From NCBI GenBank assembly GCA_017307355.1, contig JAFKFG010000011.1, positions 62,001 through 126,000 of the forward strand: a DNA stretch of 64,000 nucleotides, read 5' to 3'. The position numbers and the translations under genes are program-made. Below, one piece after another: positions 25,438-32,169 of this stretch (position 1 is the stretch's first letter; each line of letters starts with the position of its first letter). The DNA is from Alphaproteobacteria bacterium (GTDB taxonomy: Bacteria > Pseudomonadota > Alphaproteobacteria > Micropepsales > Micropepsaceae). Below the pieces are notes generated by a model. It saw nothing but the letters and a program-made list of their open reading frames with translations, was not told the origin of the DNA and did not search any database.

Positions 25438-26310
25438 ATGGCGGCCATGAATGCATTGGGCAATTACCTGAAGGATCGCCGCGCCAAGCTCGATCCCACG
25501 GCGTTCGGTTTTGCGCTGACGCGGCGCAGGACGCCGGGCCTGCGGCGGGAGGAAGTGGCGCAACGCGCCAATGTCAGCGCCACCTGGTACACCTGGCTGG
25601 AGCAAGGCCGGGGCGGCGCGCCGTCCGCCGATGTGCTGGATCGCATCGCCCGCGCGATGATGCTGACGGATGTGGAGCGCGAGCATCTGTTCCTGCTTGG
25701 CCTGGGCCGGCCGCCCGAAGCCCGCTACCGGGCGCCCGAAGGCATCACGCCGCGGCTGCAGCGCCTGCTCGACACGCTGGATCACAGTCCCGCTTTCATC
25801 AGGACGGCGGTCTGGGACGTGATCGCCTGGAACAAGGCCGCGGCGGTCGTGCTGACGGATTATGGCGCCTTGCCGGAAGGTCAGCGCAATGTGCTGCGCA
25901 TGATGTTCCGCGACACGCGTGTGCGCGCGGCGCAATCCGACTGGCAAAGTGTCGCGCGCTATGTGGTCGCTTCGTTCCGCGCCGATGTGGCGCGCGCCGG
26001 CGCGGCCCGCAATGTTCAATCGCTGGTCGACGAATTATGCGCGACCAGCGCCGAATTCGCGGCCATGTGGCGCGACAATGACGTGCGCGGGCATGGCGAT
26101 GGGCTGAAGGTGCTGCATCACCCCGTCGCCGGAAAATTATCCCTGGAATTTTCGGGCTTTGCCGTCGATGGGCGGTCCGATCTCACCATGGTGATCTATA
26201 ATCCCGCCACAGCGTCGGACGCGAAAAAAATTCGCGCCTTGCTCAAGCCGGCGCGCCGCAAGCTCAGCGCTGCGCCAGCTGGCCGGAAGGCGGCGGCAAA
26301 TCGCCGATAG
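25438..26310 (+). CDS. XRE family regulator (MmyB-like)
   Basis: A 290-residue regulator. The N-terminal helix-turn-helix (about residues 5-75) contains RRTPGLRREEVAQRANVSATWYTWLEQGR, shortened here to the recognisable GLRREEVA and TWYTWLEQGR blocks. A PAS-like MmyB ligand domain follows, with FIRTAVWDVIAWN, LRMMF and the late KVLHHPVAGKLSLEF. Such proteins commonly regulate a divergent SDR. Its last 47 bases overlap the 3' end of the converging S8 protease. Confidence 0.83.
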   Translation: MAAMNALGNYLKDRRAKLDPTAFGFALTRRRTPGLRREEVAQRANVSATWYTWLEQGRGGAPSADVLDRIARAMMLTDVEREHLFLLGLGRPPEARYRAPEGITPRLQRLLDTLDHSPAFIRTAVWDVIAWNKAAAVVLTDYGALPEGQRNVLRMMFRDTRVRAAQSDWQSVARYVVASFRADVARAGAARNVQSLVDELCATSAEFAAMWRDNDVRGHGDGLKVLHHPVAGKLSLEFSGFAVDGRSDLTMVIYNPATASDAKKIRALLKPARRKLSAAPAGRKAAANRR

Positions 26311-27610
26311 TGCTGTTCGGCATCAGGCTCGCGGCCCGCGTCAGCGTGTCGAGCGCGGCTCTGCAATTGTCGGTTCCGGGCGCCGGAACAAGCAGCGCGA
26401 ACCGCGCGGCGACCAGCGGGCTGGCATAGGATGTGCCACTGACCTGGCCATAGCCGCTGGGCAGGGCGGCGGCCCGGATGCCGACGCCGATCGCGGAGAA
26501 GCGCGCGGCGCCGCGATTGGCGTCCAGCGCGAAATGATGACCGGCATCCGAGGCGGTGACGCCGATGACCCCCGCATAGGCGGCGGGATAGTTAGGCGGC
26601 GCGGCCGGGCCGTCATTGCCGGTTGCGGCCACCAGCACATGGCCGCTATCGACAAAGGCTTTGACCGCCGCGCCCAGCAGCGCGTTGGCCGGCCCGGCAA
26701 GACTGATGTTGGCGACGGGAATGTTATTTTCGGCCAGCCAATTCAGCGCCTGGGCGATTTCGGCTGCGCTGCCGCCGCTGGCCTGGCCGCCGAACACATC
26801 GGCGGCATAAATCGTGGCGCCGGACAGATAGCCGGAGAAATCCTTGTCGGAACCGGCGAGGAGAGAGGCGATGGCGGTTCCGTGCGCGGTCGCCAGTGGT
26901 TCGCCGGGGCCTGCGAAATTCCGGCTCACGATTTTCGTGTTCGAAAAAGCGGCATGATGGGATTCAATCCCGCCATCGATCATCCCGATGCGCAAAGAGG
27001 ATCGGGCGGGGGCAAGCGAAGTAGAGCGTGGCGCGCTGTTTTCGTCGGCGGCCTGGCCCCCGCTGGGATTGTAGATATTGGCATAATCATAATTGCCGCC
27101 GGGATCGGCTTGCCGGAGCGCCGTCAGCGCCTGGCTTTCGGTCAAGCCTTCGGGCGCGCGCAAAATCGTCACCGCCAGATTGAGAGCGCCCAGCTGATCC
27201 TGGCGGACGATGCCGAAATTGAGTCTGCGGGCGGTGGCCAGGCTTTCGGGCGTGGGCGACACCGCCAGGATTTCATTCCGTACGATGGGATGACCTTGAT
27301 CGTCCCGGCTGGGCGAAGCCTGGTTCAGCGGCCGGCCGACCAGATCGCGGGTTGCGTCCGCGGCGATCCCTTGCACGGTCTGCCCCAGCCTGTTCGCGGC
27401 ATTGTCGATGGGCGCGCCCGGCACGACGGTGGAAAGCGGAGCGGCGGGTGCCGTTCGCGGCGCCGTCACCACCGGCACATTGGGAAGGCCGTTCAGCCCA
27501 CCCGGTCCCAGCCCGCCAAGGCCTCGGCCGCCCAGCAATTGGGCATGGGCCGGAGCGCCCATGGCGAGGAGCATCGCGCCAATCAGAATGGATTTAACCG
27601 CCGGTGCCAT
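26264..27610 (-). CDS. S8 family serine peptidase, exported
   Basis: A 448-residue subtilisin-like protease with a signal peptide (ending AHAQ, residue 24). The mature start QLLGGRGLGGLGPGG is Gly/Leu-rich and resembles the mature start of the secreted protein at 29.0 kb. A prodomain-like region of about 180 residues precedes the catalytic core: Asp212 (MIDGG), His243 (AHGTAIASLL), oxyanion Asn332 (ATGNDG) and Ser394 (GTSYASP), all intact. It diverges from the ECF sigma gene, so it may cleave the anti-sigma factor or process the secreted protein; both are inference. Confidence 0.85.
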   Translation of the reverse strand: MAPAVKSILIGAMLLAMGAPAHAQLLGGRGLGGLGPGGLNGLPNVPVVTAPRTAPAAPLSTVVPGAPIDNAANRLGQTVQGIAADATRDLVGRPLNQASPSRDDQGHPIVRNEILAVSPTPESLATARRLNFGIVRQDQLGALNLAVTILRAPEGLTESQALTALRQADPGGNYDYANIYNPSGGQAADENSAPRSTSLAPARSSLRIGMIDGGIESHHAAFSNTKIVSRNFAGPGEPLATAHGTAIASLLAGSDKDFSGYLSGATIYAADVFGGQASGGSAAEIAQALNWLAENNIPVANISLAGPANALLGAAVKAFVDSGHVLVAATGNDGPAAPPNYPAAYAGVIGVTASDAGHHFALDANRGAARFSAIGVGIRAAALPSGYGQVSGTSYASPLVAARFALLVPAPGTDNCRAALDTLTRAASLMPNSTIGDLPPPSGQLAQR

Positions 27611-27695
27611 ATTCGTCTCGCAAGAACGCCTATAGTAGCATGCTTCAAGGCCCAAGGCTGATTTGCAAGTCTGACGAAAATTTGCCCTCCTCCAT

Positions 27696-27720
27696 GGAAG
27701 AAACCGGTCCGTCCGTCGTT
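27696..27720 (+). promoter_or_regulatory. ECF-type promoter of the sigma factor gene
   Basis: GGAAGAAA at the 5' end and CCGTCGTT at the 3' end span exactly 25 bases, 11 bases before the ATG. The same two blocks at the same spacing occur at 28964-28988. The GGAA...CGTC layout is that of ECF sigma promoters, so the sigma gene is probably autoregulated. Confidence 0.65.
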
Positions 27721-27731
27721 TCGTAAGAAAT

Positions 27732-28235
27732 ATGGCCAAAGTTGCCGACGATATTCGAGACCAGATGGTGCAACTTCTTCCCAGGTTGCGCCGCTTTGCG
27801 GCAGGTCTCACCGGTTCGATCGCCGATGGCGACGATCTGGTGCAGGATACGGTGGAACGGGCCTTGAAGAATTTGCATCAATGGGAGCCCGGTACGCGCC
27901 TGGACAGCTGGATGTTTCGTATCGCCAAGAACCGTTTCCTCGATGTCCGGCGCGGCCGGAAGCGTAGCGGCGTCGTGTCCGGGGAAATTCCCGAAGATGC
28001 GCCGGCTATTCGCAGCGACGGCGCGCGGGGGGCGGAGGCGCATATGATGTTGCGCGGTGCTGCTCAGGCACTTGATGGCCTGCCGCCGGAGCAGCGCGAA
28101 GCGCTGCTGCTGGTGACGGTGGAAGGTCTATCCTATCGGGATGCCGCCGATATTCTGGAAATCCCCATCGGCACATTGACCAGCCGGATTGCCCGGGCAC
28201 GCGAAGCCTTGGCTCTTTGGGCACCGGAGGGTTGA
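27732..28235 (+). CDS. ECF RNA polymerase sigma factor
   Basis: A 167-residue sigma factor with only regions 2 and 4. Region 2 contains ADGDDLVQDTVERALKN and SWMFRIAKNRFLDVRR; region 4 contains LPPEQREALLLVTVEGLSYRDAA and the recognition helix PIGTLTSRIARAREAL. It abuts the anti-sigma gene with no gap. Its own promoter carries the ECF-type motif shared with the glycine-rich gene downstream. The inducing stress is unknown, but an envelope signal is likely given the exported partners. Confidence 0.87.
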   Translation: MAKVADDIRDQMVQLLPRLRRFAAGLTGSIADGDDLVQDTVERALKNLHQWEPGTRLDSWMFRIAKNRFLDVRRGRKRSGVVSGEIPEDAPAIRSDGARGAEAHMMLRGAAQALDGLPPEQREALLLVTVEGLSYRDAADILEIPIGTLTSRIARAREALALWAPEG

Positions 28236-28937
28236 ATGGACCCGACGCGCGAGACATTGAGCGCCTTCATCGACGGAGAATTGCCGCCCAAGGAGATGGA
28301 GCGCATCGCCGCGCTTTTGGCCACGCGGCCCGATCTGGATGCCTGGGTGCGGCAGCAGGAAACGCTTCGGGCGGGCATGAAGTCGGCGCTCTCCGATCTG
28401 GCTGCCGCGCCGCCGCCCGAAAGGCTGGTGCGGATTGCGCAAACCACACCCATCTCTTGGCGTTGGCGCCTGGGCCGGGCCGGGCAAGGCGCGATACTGC
28501 GGACATGGATTCCGGCCGGCGCCACATTGGCTCTGGGTCTTCTGATCGGCATTGGGTTGGTACCGCCCGGCGACATCGGCAGCCGCGGCGGGCAGGTGGT
28601 CGCGCAAGGGGCATTGGCCTCGGCCTTGAACGGCAAGCTGGCATCGGACAATGGCGCCGGATCCGGTCCGCGCATCGGAGTTTCCTTCCGGGATCATGAC
28701 GGGCGCTATTGCCGGAGCTTCGATGCCGACGGGCAGAGCGGGTTTGCCTGTCATGGAAGCAGGGGCTGGGACATCGCAATGCTGGCGGCGCGGCCGAATG
28801 CCGAGGCTTCGGGCCCCTACCGCATGGCGGGTTCGGAAATGCCCGATGCGATACGCGCGGCGATTGCCGCCCGTATTCAAGGGGAACCTTTTGACATAAA
28901 AGCGGAAAAGGCCGCCCGCGATCGGGGCTGGCAATAA
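28236..28937 (+). CDS. Anti-sigma factor, single-pass membrane
   Basis: 233 residues. The N-terminal DPTRETLSAFIDGELPPKEMERIAALLA matches the anti-sigma helical domain of the FecR/RsiW/ChrR-like class (recognisable as FIDGELPP). One hydrophobic segment at about residues 92-112 (TLALGLLIGIGLV) puts the roughly 120-residue C-terminal part, with a CxxSFDADGQSGFAC-type cysteine pair, in the periplasm. It would hold the sigma factor at the membrane until a periplasmic signal. Coupled directly to the sigma gene. Confidence 0.78.
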   Translation: MDPTRETLSAFIDGELPPKEMERIAALLATRPDLDAWVRQQETLRAGMKSALSDLAAAPPPERLVRIAQTTPISWRWRLGRAGQGAILRTWIPAGATLALGLLIGIGLVPPGDIGSRGGQVVAQGALASALNGKLASDNGAGSGPRIGVSFRDHDGRYCRSFDADGQSGFACHGSRGWDIAMLAARPNAEASGPYRMAGSEMPDAIRAAIAARIQGEPFDIKAEKAARDRGWQ

Positions 28938-28963
28938 CGGCCCGGAAAAATTCTCCGGTTCCG

Positions 28964-28988
28964 GGAAGAAAACTCCATCCCCGTCGTT
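28964..28988 (+). promoter_or_regulatory. ECF-type promoter of the glycine-rich gene
   Basis: A second copy of the GGAAGAAA...CCGTCGTT arrangement, again spanning 25 bases, 56 bases before the ATG at 29045. The central bases between the blocks differ from the first copy, so conservation is limited to the presumed -35 and -10. Confidence 0.65.
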
Positions 28989-29044
28989 GATGGGCTGAAA
29001 GGTCCGGCATTCCGGACCCGACGGAACCTAGGAGGATCTTTCCC

Positions 29045-29635
29045 ATGAATACCAACACTCTGCGCCTTTCGGCTTTGGCCGTTCTGTTGTTGGGGACGCT
29101 GTCATTGACGTCACCCGCATCGGCCCAGTTGCTGGGCGGCGGTTTGGGCGGACGCGGCATGGCCGGTCCTGTCGGAGCGGGTGGCGGATTTGGCGGCGGC
29201 TTCGGAAGCGGTGGCTTCGGTGGCATGGCGCATGGCGCGGGCGGTTTTGGCGCCGCGACGCCGAGCTTGCCCAATGCCATGGGCGCGACGGGCGCGGCAC
29301 AGAGCCGGGCGAACAATGCGATTACGTCCGGTGAAGCGGCCGGACAGAGCGCCATCAACAGAGCGCCCGCGGCCTCCGCTTCCGGCAGTGCCGGCGCAAA
29401 TGCCGGCGCCATGGGCATGACGGCGGGCGGCTCGGCCGGCGGCGGCTTCGACAGCAATGCGGTCACCGGTGCGGCTTCCGACGCCTATTCGCGTTCGACC
29501 GGCGCGATCAATAACGCGGCGGGCCGCGCGGAAGCGGCGGGCGATCATGCGCTCAATACCGTCAACGGCGCGGCGGCCGGTGCCAATGTCAGCGCGGGCG
29601 GCAATGCCTCGGCCGGCGCGAGCGCAAATCCATAA
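29045..29635 (+). CDS. Exported Gly/Ala-rich low-complexity protein
   Basis: A 196-residue protein with a clean signal peptide (residues 1-27, ending ASAQ). Mature QLLGGGLGGRGMAG is followed by Gly-Phe-rich repeats (GGGFGGGFGSGGFGG) and an Ala/Gly/Asn/Ser-rich tail with no cysteine. No catalytic motif is seen. The likely role is a surface, matrix or cell-wall-associated structural protein. AGGAGG lies seven bases before the ATG. Its promoter matches that of the ECF gene, so it is a probable member of that regulon. Confidence 0.7.
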   Translation: MNTNTLRLSALAVLLLGTLSLTSPASAQLLGGGLGGRGMAGPVGAGGGFGGGFGSGGFGGMAHGAGGFGAATPSLPNAMGATGAAQSRANNAITSGEAAGQSAINRAPAASASGSAGANAGAMGMTAGGSAGGGFDSNAVTGAASDAYSRSTGAINNAAGRAEAAGDHALNTVNGAAAGANVSAGGNASAGASANP

Positions 29636-29650
29636 ACTGAGTCTTCATGC

Positions 29651-29683
29651 CCTTGGTCCGTCCGCGGTGCGGGCGGACCAAAG
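29651..29683. terminator. Bidirectional hairpin terminator
   Basis: CCTTGGTCCGTCCGC pairs with GCGGGCGGACCAAAGG around a short loop, allowing a G-T pair. It sits between the stop of the glycine-rich gene and the stop of the converging ABC permease. Confidence 0.65.
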
Positions 29684-29688
29684 GCTTC

Positions 29689-32169
29689 TTATTCGTAACG
29701 CAGCGCATGGATCGGGTTGGCGCGGGCAACCCGACTGGCATGGGCGAAGACCGTGGCCCAGGCGATCACCAGCGCGGCGGTGCCCGACGCCAGGAAATAA
29801 GCGGGGCTGAGGCCGATCCGGTAGGCATAACCGTCCAGCCAGCTGCGCAGATAATAATAAGCCAGCGGCCAGGCGATCAGATTGGCGATCAGCACCGGTA
29901 TCGAGAATTGCCAAAGCAGCAACCAGACGATGTCCCGGCTGCGCGCACCGAAGACTTTGCGAAAGCCGATCTCGCGGGTGCGCCGCTCCGCCGCGAAGGA
30001 TGCCAGCCCGAACAGGCCGAGGCAGGCGATGAAGATCGCGATCCCCACGAAGAGGGCGAACATGGTGCCTTGTTTCTCGACGGCTTGAAATTGATCTTCG
30101 AAATCGTCACTCAGAAAGTGACGGCTGATAACCGCGCTGGGCGCAAAGGCATGCCAGGTCCGGTCTATGAAGCCGAGGGTGTTGGAAAGATGCTGGCTCC
30201 GTAGATACACAGAAACCTGGCCAGTGAAGGCCGGTATATTGCGATATAGAGTGGGTCTGATGGGCCTGCTCGCGCCCAGCATCTTAATGTCCCCAGTCAC
30301 TCCCACGATGGTGGCAGGTGTTCCGTTTACCGTGATGGTTTTTCCGATCGCACTAGCATTGGAGTAACCGAGCATGCGAGCGCCGGTCTCGTTGACCATG
30401 ATGTTGTATGGCGGCGATGAAAAATTGAAGCCCGACATATGTATATCGGTCACTTTGTCCGCACTATGTTGCTCGGAAAGCAGCCGCCCTTGCAGCAGTC
30501 GGGCGCCATAGACTTCGGCATAACCGGGATCAGCTGAAATCACCCAAAAGGTCAAGCTCGACGGATTGCCTGGGACGTTGACGTCCGTGTTGTTATTGTT
30601 ATCGGAAAAGGGGATTGCGAAGCTGTCCGTAACTGAAACATTGGTGATATCGGGATTTGAGCGCAGTGCCTTGGCGAAGCTGTCTCTGCCGCTGGCCGAA
30701 ATATTGTTCGCGTCAATCACCAGCACACCATCTTTGCGGACACCAAGATCGACATGCCGGGCAAAGGAGATTTGTGCAAAGACCACGAGCGCGGCGATCC
30801 CCAGGCCGATGGAGACAGCAAATTGAAGGACGACGAGTGTGGTCCTCAGAATGCCGGAGTTTAGAGACTTCGAGGTATTTGCTCGTAGGGCATTGGCGGG
30901 TCGGAAGCCGGAAAGAATCAAGGCGGGATAGATTCCACTCAAAAACCCAGCAGCTATTGCCATCGTGACGATCAGACCCAGAACGTACCAGTTTCTCACG
31001 TATTGAAATGTAATTGGGATGTTCAGGAAGCGGTTAAATGCAGGTAGCAGCGTTTCGGTCAATGATAGCGCCAGTAGTAGCGCGATCAGTGCCGTCAGCA
31101 GCGATTCCCCAAGAAATTGAATGATCAGCTGCTTGCGCGCGGCGCCCATCACTTTGCGCAGAGAAATTTCACGAACGCGCAAGGTTGCCCGCGCTGTGGC
31201 CAAATTGGTAAAATTGAAGCAGGCGACCAGGAGGATGAGGATGCCGATGGCGGCAAATCCGTAGATGATGGTCCAGCTCCCCGCTGGTGTCATGCTGCCA
31301 TACCGGTCGGTCGAAAGATGGTCGTCGCGGAAGGGCGTGAGATAGGGGGGCTCCATCTCGCTACCCTTCATATTGAGCTTCATCCGTGTTCGCGGATCGA
31401 CGGAGCGGTCGATAATCGCTCTAAGTTTAGCAATAACCTGATTGGGATTGGCACCCGGCGCGAGTAGGACGTAGCCCCAGCCAGAAGTGTTTAGCCAGTT
31501 TGTTTTTGTATTCCAATCAGTCGGATCTGCTTGGGAGGTATTGGGCATTACTAAGTCTGCCGCCATTTGCGTGTTGTGCGGCAGATCGTACAAAATTCCT
31601 GACACGACAAGCGCGTGCTGTTGCGACTGACACTTCCCTTGGCTATCGCAATAGTTGGCGCTGATGGTGATGGTTTTTCCCAAAGCTGACCCGTGGCCAA
31701 AATATTTGCGCGCTCTGGCTTCGGATAAAACAACGGAATCGGGATGAGCAAAAACCGACGTCGGGTCGCCCGCAATCAGTGGCAGCTGAATCACTTGAAA
31801 GAAGTTTGGATCAACTGAATTTACTATTTCCGGGAATTGGCGATTTTCCACCGACACCGTTACTTGACTGCGAATTAGCCGAGTGCGGGCGCGTACTTCT
31901 GGAATTTGCTCCAACATCGCTTGCGTGACGGGGAATGGTATTTTGGAGGTCCACATCAATGGTTGACCTGGCACGTGCGTGGAATGCCCAACCCGATAGA
32001 GGTTTTCCGTACCCGGTATCCATCGGTCATAGGAAAGTTGATCGCGCACGAACAGGATGATGAAGATCGCGCAAGTCAACCCGACCGTGAGTCCGGCGAT
32101 ATTGATGAAGCTGTAGAGCTTGTGCCGCGTGAAGTTGCGCAGGGCCGTAATCAGATAATTGCGGAACAT
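29689..32169 (-). CDS. ABC transporter permease (MacB/FtsX type)
   Basis: An 826-residue permease with two FtsX-like units. Each has a periplasmic domain flanked by membrane helices: TM near 20-40 (FINIAGLTVGLTCAIFIILF), a large periplasmic MacB_PCD-like domain, three helices around 290-420, a second periplasmic domain, and three final helices. Conserved permease motifs are LRVREISLRKVMGAARKQL and TREIGFRKVFGARSRD. The ATPase and adaptor genes follow upstream in the same operon. The middle of the gene looks less GC-rich than its ends. Likely exports a peptide, lipid or antibiotic-like substrate. ATG 32169 follows GGAGGATAATCG. Confidence 0.84.
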   Translation of the reverse strand: MFRNYLITALRNFTRHKLYSFINIAGLTVGLTCAIFIILFVRDQLSYDRWIPGTENLYRVGHSTHVPGQPLMWTSKIPFPVTQAMLEQIPEVRARTRLIRSQVTVSVENRQFPEIVNSVDPNFFQVIQLPLIAGDPTSVFAHPDSVVLSEARARKYFGHGSALGKTITISANYCDSQGKCQSQQHALVVSGILYDLPHNTQMAADLVMPNTSQADPTDWNTKTNWLNTSGWGYVLLAPGANPNQVIAKLRAIIDRSVDPRTRMKLNMKGSEMEPPYLTPFRDDHLSTDRYGSMTPAGSWTIIYGFAAIGILILLVACFNFTNLATARATLRVREISLRKVMGAARKQLIIQFLGESLLTALIALLLALSLTETLLPAFNRFLNIPITFQYVRNWYVLGLIVTMAIAAGFLSGIYPALILSGFRPANALRANTSKSLNSGILRTTLVVLQFAVSIGLGIAALVVFAQISFARHVDLGVRKDGVLVIDANNISASGRDSFAKALRSNPDITNVSVTDSFAIPFSDNNNNTDVNVPGNPSSLTFWVISADPGYAEVYGARLLQGRLLSEQHSADKVTDIHMSGFNFSSPPYNIMVNETGARMLGYSNASAIGKTITVNGTPATIVGVTGDIKMLGASRPIRPTLYRNIPAFTGQVSVYLRSQHLSNTLGFIDRTWHAFAPSAVISRHFLSDDFEDQFQAVEKQGTMFALFVGIAIFIACLGLFGLASFAAERRTREIGFRKVFGARSRDIVWLLLWQFSIPVLIANLIAWPLAYYYLRSWLDGYAYRIGLSPAYFLASGTAALVIAWATVFAHASRVARANPIHALRYE

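Follow-up and report, generated by a model that had tools for sequence, protein, structure and literature searches.

The closest characterized relative that we found for the system described here is S. meliloti RpoE6 (SMa0143), which is 48% identical to our sigma factor. RpoE6 has been placed in group ECF26, in which a divergent serine protease is a widely conserved context, and it activates ecfR6, SMa0148, and the gene of the divergent serine protease (SMa0142), all of which have GGAATA-N15-CGTT promoters of exactly 25 bases (PMC6180224).

The window analyzed here is a stretch of 64,000 nucleotides from an alphaproteobacterium of the Micropepsaceae (Alphaproteobacteria bacterium, GCA_017307355.1, contig JAFKFG010000011.1, positions 62,001 to 126,000, forward strand), and its sigma factor locus comprises the following features, in window coordinates.

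26264-27610, minus strand: S8 (subtilisin-type) protease, with a signal peptide and then a Gly-rich stretch (Pfam PF00082, E = 1.1e-21)
27677-27683, plus strand: A/T tract AAAATTT upstream of promoter 1, with a similar tract in most loci of the clade
27696-27720, plus strand: predicted promoter 1, -35 GGAAGAA at 27696-27702 and -10 CGTT at 27717-27720
27732-28235, plus strand: ECF sigma factor, 167 amino acids (Pfam Sigma70_r2 and Sigma70_r4_2)
28236-28937, plus strand: putative anti-sigma factor, 233 amino acids, assigned from its position directly after the sigma stop codon, its conservation, and weak model scores
28946-28952, plus strand: A/T tract AAAAATT upstream of promoter 2, conserved in the clade
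28964-28988, plus strand: predicted promoter 2, -35 GGAAGAA at 28964-28970 and -10 CGTT at 28985-28988
29030-29035, plus strand: ribosome-binding site AGGAGG of the secreted-protein gene, read from the sequence
29045-29635, plus strand: open reading frame of a secreted Gly/Ala-rich protein, 196 amino acids with a signal peptide, a predicted sigma target

The sigma protein carries Sigma70_r2 at residues 14-78 and Sigma70_r4_2 at 111-160, both over the Pfam cut-off, and is an ECF (group IV) sigma factor of the envelope-stress type. The putative anti-sigma protein consists of a cytoplasmic N-terminal domain, one predicted membrane helix, and a periplasmic domain with invariant C159 and C172; its zf-HC2/RseA_N and anti-sigma model scores stay below the cut-off (Pfam/NCBIfam), and its structure model (mean pLDDT of 66) had no Foldseek match below 0.001 and no PDB relative. 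The Gly-rich secreted protein had no match in Pfam or NCBIfam. A divergent serine protease, the ECF26 context, is present both here and in RpoE6-type loci, and the -10 CGTT fits the -10 GT that accompanies a -35 GGAATA in the ECF26 signature. Since the -35 element reads GGAAGA in the window and in 9 of 11 site-1 copies, and not the strict consensus GGAATA, we describe the system as ECF26-like and stop short of assigning it to ECF26.

The initial annotation had pointed to two near-identical sites of 25 bases overall, one before the sigma gene and one before the Gly-rich gene, with differing bases in between, and had taken them as evidence for the promoter specificity and autoregulation of the sigma factor. 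The pattern GGAAGAAA-N9-CCGTCGTT indeed occurs exactly, on the plus strand, at 27696-27720 and 28964-28988; the 16 fixed bases are identical, and the spacers CCGGTCCGT and ACTCCATCC agree at only one of nine bases. Motif scans were run by pattern with reversed-pattern controls, and the genome-wide scan that had been proposed as a check recovered this pair as the only exact copies in 3,494,698 bases. With up to three mismatches, the window holds 3 matches, a count that none of 100 shuffles reached, against 0.41 expected in shuffles. Three matches with two mismatches occur in the genome, two of them inside open reading frames of more than 300 amino acids and the third being locus L003.

Comparison with ten further loci of the same genus, all with the order S8 protease, divergent sigma gene, and anti-sigma gene, showed that the paired motif is real but that its 16-base form was drawn slightly too long, as the conserved core across these 11 loci is GGAAGAA-N14-CGTT. 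This core or a close variant stands before the sigma gene and after the anti-sigma gene in all 11 loci, with a best match at either position of 9 to 11 of 11 in every locus; the mean match is 10.7 before the sigma gene and 10.5 after the anti-sigma gene versus 6.8 and 7.0 in first-order shuffles (standard deviation, 0.23). Conservation is only partial for base 8 of the left half and for the CCGT preceding CGTT, the spacer bases are not conserved, and the second sites of L094 and L216 are imperfect. An A/T tract about 11 to 19 bases upstream of the -35 element is conserved as well, mostly at the second site, and the tract of promoter 1 may function in the manner of an UP element. The promoter pair, its conservation, the gene order, and the covariation described below are all results of sequence comparison. 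All 11 loci also have the divergent S8 protease.

The gene behind the second site, located by position in the orthologous loci, varies. In five loci (the window, L097, L098, L214, and L215) it encodes a Gly-rich secreted protein, and in L216 a secreted protein rich in Ala and Ser. In the other five (L094, L095, L096, L099, and L100), its product is an outer-membrane barrel (PF13557 in L096), and a low-complexity secreted protein is encoded next. No relative of the window's Gly-rich protein turned up in the orthologous loci by tblastn. Since the promoter persists even though the gene behind it has been replaced, there is strong evidence that site 2 is functional. In half of the clade (L094-L100), a PF13557-type barrel and a GPP-repeat secreted protein take the place of the Gly-rich protein behind the second promoter.

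The distance from the end of promoter 1 to the sigma ATG (27732) is 11 bases, and that from the end of promoter 2 to the Gly-rich ATG (29045) is 56 bases. Among the 11 loci, there are 8 in which the sigma ATG follows CGTT at 11 to 15 bases. Because the published transcript of SMa0142 starts 9 bases after CGTT (PMC6180224), this yardstick would put the sigma transcript start within a few bases of the ATG, and the leader of the sigma mRNA is probably a few bases long or absent. In L094 there is no clear start codon 11 to 15 bases after CGTT. The Gly-rich gene, unlike the sigma gene, is preceded by a leader that contains a strong ribosome-binding site; just upstream of this site, a perfect inverted repeat, GGTCCGG-CATT-CCGGACC, occupies window positions 29001-29018. 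An Rfam search gave no match, and a sigma-70 promoter scan of 27550-29750 found none.

To relate promoter to sigma factor, 59 loci were gathered by sigma similarity, nearly all of them alphaproteobacterial, and the base at the fifth -35 position was taken from matches to a pattern in which this position is free. All 31 loci that have a site and carry Met at the position aligned with R171 of E. coli RpoE show T at the fifth -35 base, whereas the 16 loci with Thr at this position show G only (12 loci), a mixture (2 loci), or T only (2 loci). The association of Thr with G and Met with T has a Fisher P value of 3e-9, with relatedness ignored. In two Thr loci, L098 and L216, the fifth base of site 1 is T. 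In a tree built with this residue masked, Thr/G appears in separate places, namely, the clade of the window, a clade of L166, L197, and L201, and L177 among Met/T relatives, with support below 95 for the fork that places L177. The aligned residue in the window sigma factor is T150, which lies in the recognition helix and has the highest mutual information with the fifth -35 base among all alignment columns. According to a SigW structure paper that includes E. coli sigma-E in a comparison, R171 of sigma-E forms a hydrogen bond with the G opposite C-31, and C-31 is the fifth base of GGAAC (PMC6713349). T150 is thus our predicted specificity residue for base 5 of the -35 element. There is also a weaker trend of V, L, or T at the F175-aligned residue with T at the fourth -35 base. 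In five loci (L166, L171, L182, L197, and L201), the R171 position holds Thr or Asn, the F175 position holds V, L, or T, and the -35 element is GGAT[GT]AAA with spacing that is one base longer, a pattern that suggests a second specificity residue.

The regulon is apparently tiny and local, confined to these two promoters as far as motif scans can tell. The looser core GGAAGAA-N14-CGTT has four other matches in the genome, of which the three examined all lie inside long open reading frames and the fourth is at C52:84958, and off-locus core matches in related genomes occur at control level only; these scans do not support a wider regulon. The protease was rejected as a sigma target, as no motif faces it in the clade of the window, unlike in rhizobia.

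Conservation in 11 loci, base/residue covariation, and the promoter geometry of RpoE6 together argue that the local sigma factor reads both promoters and hence its own, so that the specificity and autoregulation initially proposed are well supported by sequence comparison. We consider it highly probable that the ECF sigma factor encoded between the two sites uses both of them as its promoters, even though RpoE6 in S. meliloti has no motif before its own gene. It is very unlikely that they are instead general-stress promoters of EcfG, with the local sigma factor serving other targets. The EcfG consensus, GGAAC-N16-CGTT, is one base away and shares the spacing and -10 element, and the RpoE6 and RpoE2 regulons of S. 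meliloti overlap (PMC6180224). However, base 5 at both sites tracks the residue of the local sigma factor and not that of EcfG, and the motif travels with this locus. Moreover, the local sigma gene shows neither nepR/phyR linkage nor a GGAAC -35 element, and the only NepR match of the genome lies on another contig (C15) beside another ECF gene, EcfG, which has its own GGAACC...CGTT promoter. EcfG is therefore disfavored as the reader, and cross-talk is possible. Even less probable is binding by some other regulator common to both genes, such as a repressor; a dual-acting regulator is conceivable in an intergenic region shared with a divergent gene, but GGAA...CGTT at ECF spacing, in the right orientation and at the right distance for both genes, and covarying with the sigma residue, speaks for a sigma factor. 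Chance resemblance or recent local duplication, to which the four looser matches and the control-level matches in relatives might lend some weight, can be dismissed, as sixteen fixed bases recur within 1.3 kb and nowhere else in 3.49 Mb, spacers and flanks differ as they would not after duplication, and conservation of both sites in 11 loci already refutes it.

With the local sigma factor as the preferred reader, we infer active promoters, a signal, a direction of regulation, and a possible part for the protease, as follows. The membrane-anchored anti-sigma factor would hold the sigma factor until an envelope signal releases it, and the freed sigma factor would then transcribe its own sigma/anti-sigma operon from promoter 1, a positive autoregulatory loop that includes its own brake, and the gene of the secreted Gly-rich protein from promoter 2. 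The protease might act on the anti-sigma factor or on the secreted protein.

In several lineages, the low-complexity stretch that follows the signal peptide of the protease is similar in composition to the low-complexity secreted protein encoded alongside it (window 26264-27610 and 29045-29635; L094-L100, L102, L105, L190, and L214-L216), the matched types being GGLGG, GPP (GPPxG), Ala/Gln, Ala/Ser, and Arg/Asp. Own pairs are closer in composition than permuted pairs (P = 0.003, 16 loci) in a small post hoc test that leaves genome-wide composition uncontrolled, and the same test with one locus per lineage, also post hoc, gave P values of 0.001 to 0.017. There are misfits: the score of the window itself is slightly negative, L098 is without the stretch, and the rhizobia differ in sequence. 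It is speculation that the locus is a self-contained envelope module, with the stretches changing together between lineages; in such a module, the secreted protein would bind, titrate, or feed the protease and so close a feedback loop via the anti-sigma factor. We regard this as rather unlikely. Seven further loci (L177, L179, L186, L187, L192, L194, and L134) have S8 proteases divergent from related ECF genes and with extreme Asp-rich stretches after the signal peptide, amounting to dozens of consecutive Asp residues in L177, and no matching secreted protein was seen near them.

From the resemblance of two sites, our analysis arrives at a sigma-promoter pair that can be tested and that has a named specificity residue: where E. 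coli RpoE has R171, Thr is paired with G and Met with T as the fifth base of the -35 element. Pairs of this kind aid the prediction of ECF targets in genomes that lack annotation, and they could be used as orthogonal switches. The locus is also a case of a promoter staying put while the gene behind it changes, and it ties an uncharacterized secreted protein to a poorly understood ECF26-type signaling module.

Among known systems, E. coli RpoE shares with this one a GGAA -35 element read by the same recognition helix and a membrane-bound anti-sigma factor, here a putative one, but it has Arg at position 171, C as the fifth base, and a different anti-sigma factor and regulon. EcfG (ECF15) is likewise an alphaproteobacterial ECF sigma factor with a CGTT -10 element at the same spacing, and it differs in its GGAAC -35 element, Lys at the helix position, and control by NepR. 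From RpoE6 the present system differs in having GGAAGA instead of GGAATA and Thr instead of Met at the helix position, in its downstream genes, and in its intergenic motif, which faces the protease in rhizobia and the sigma gene in the clade of the window. The RpoE6-EcfR6 system nevertheless also has a divergent S8 protease and an anti-sigma gene directly downstream, the position of the putative one here, and its target promoters combine a GGAA-type -35 element with CGTT in the same 25-base geometry.
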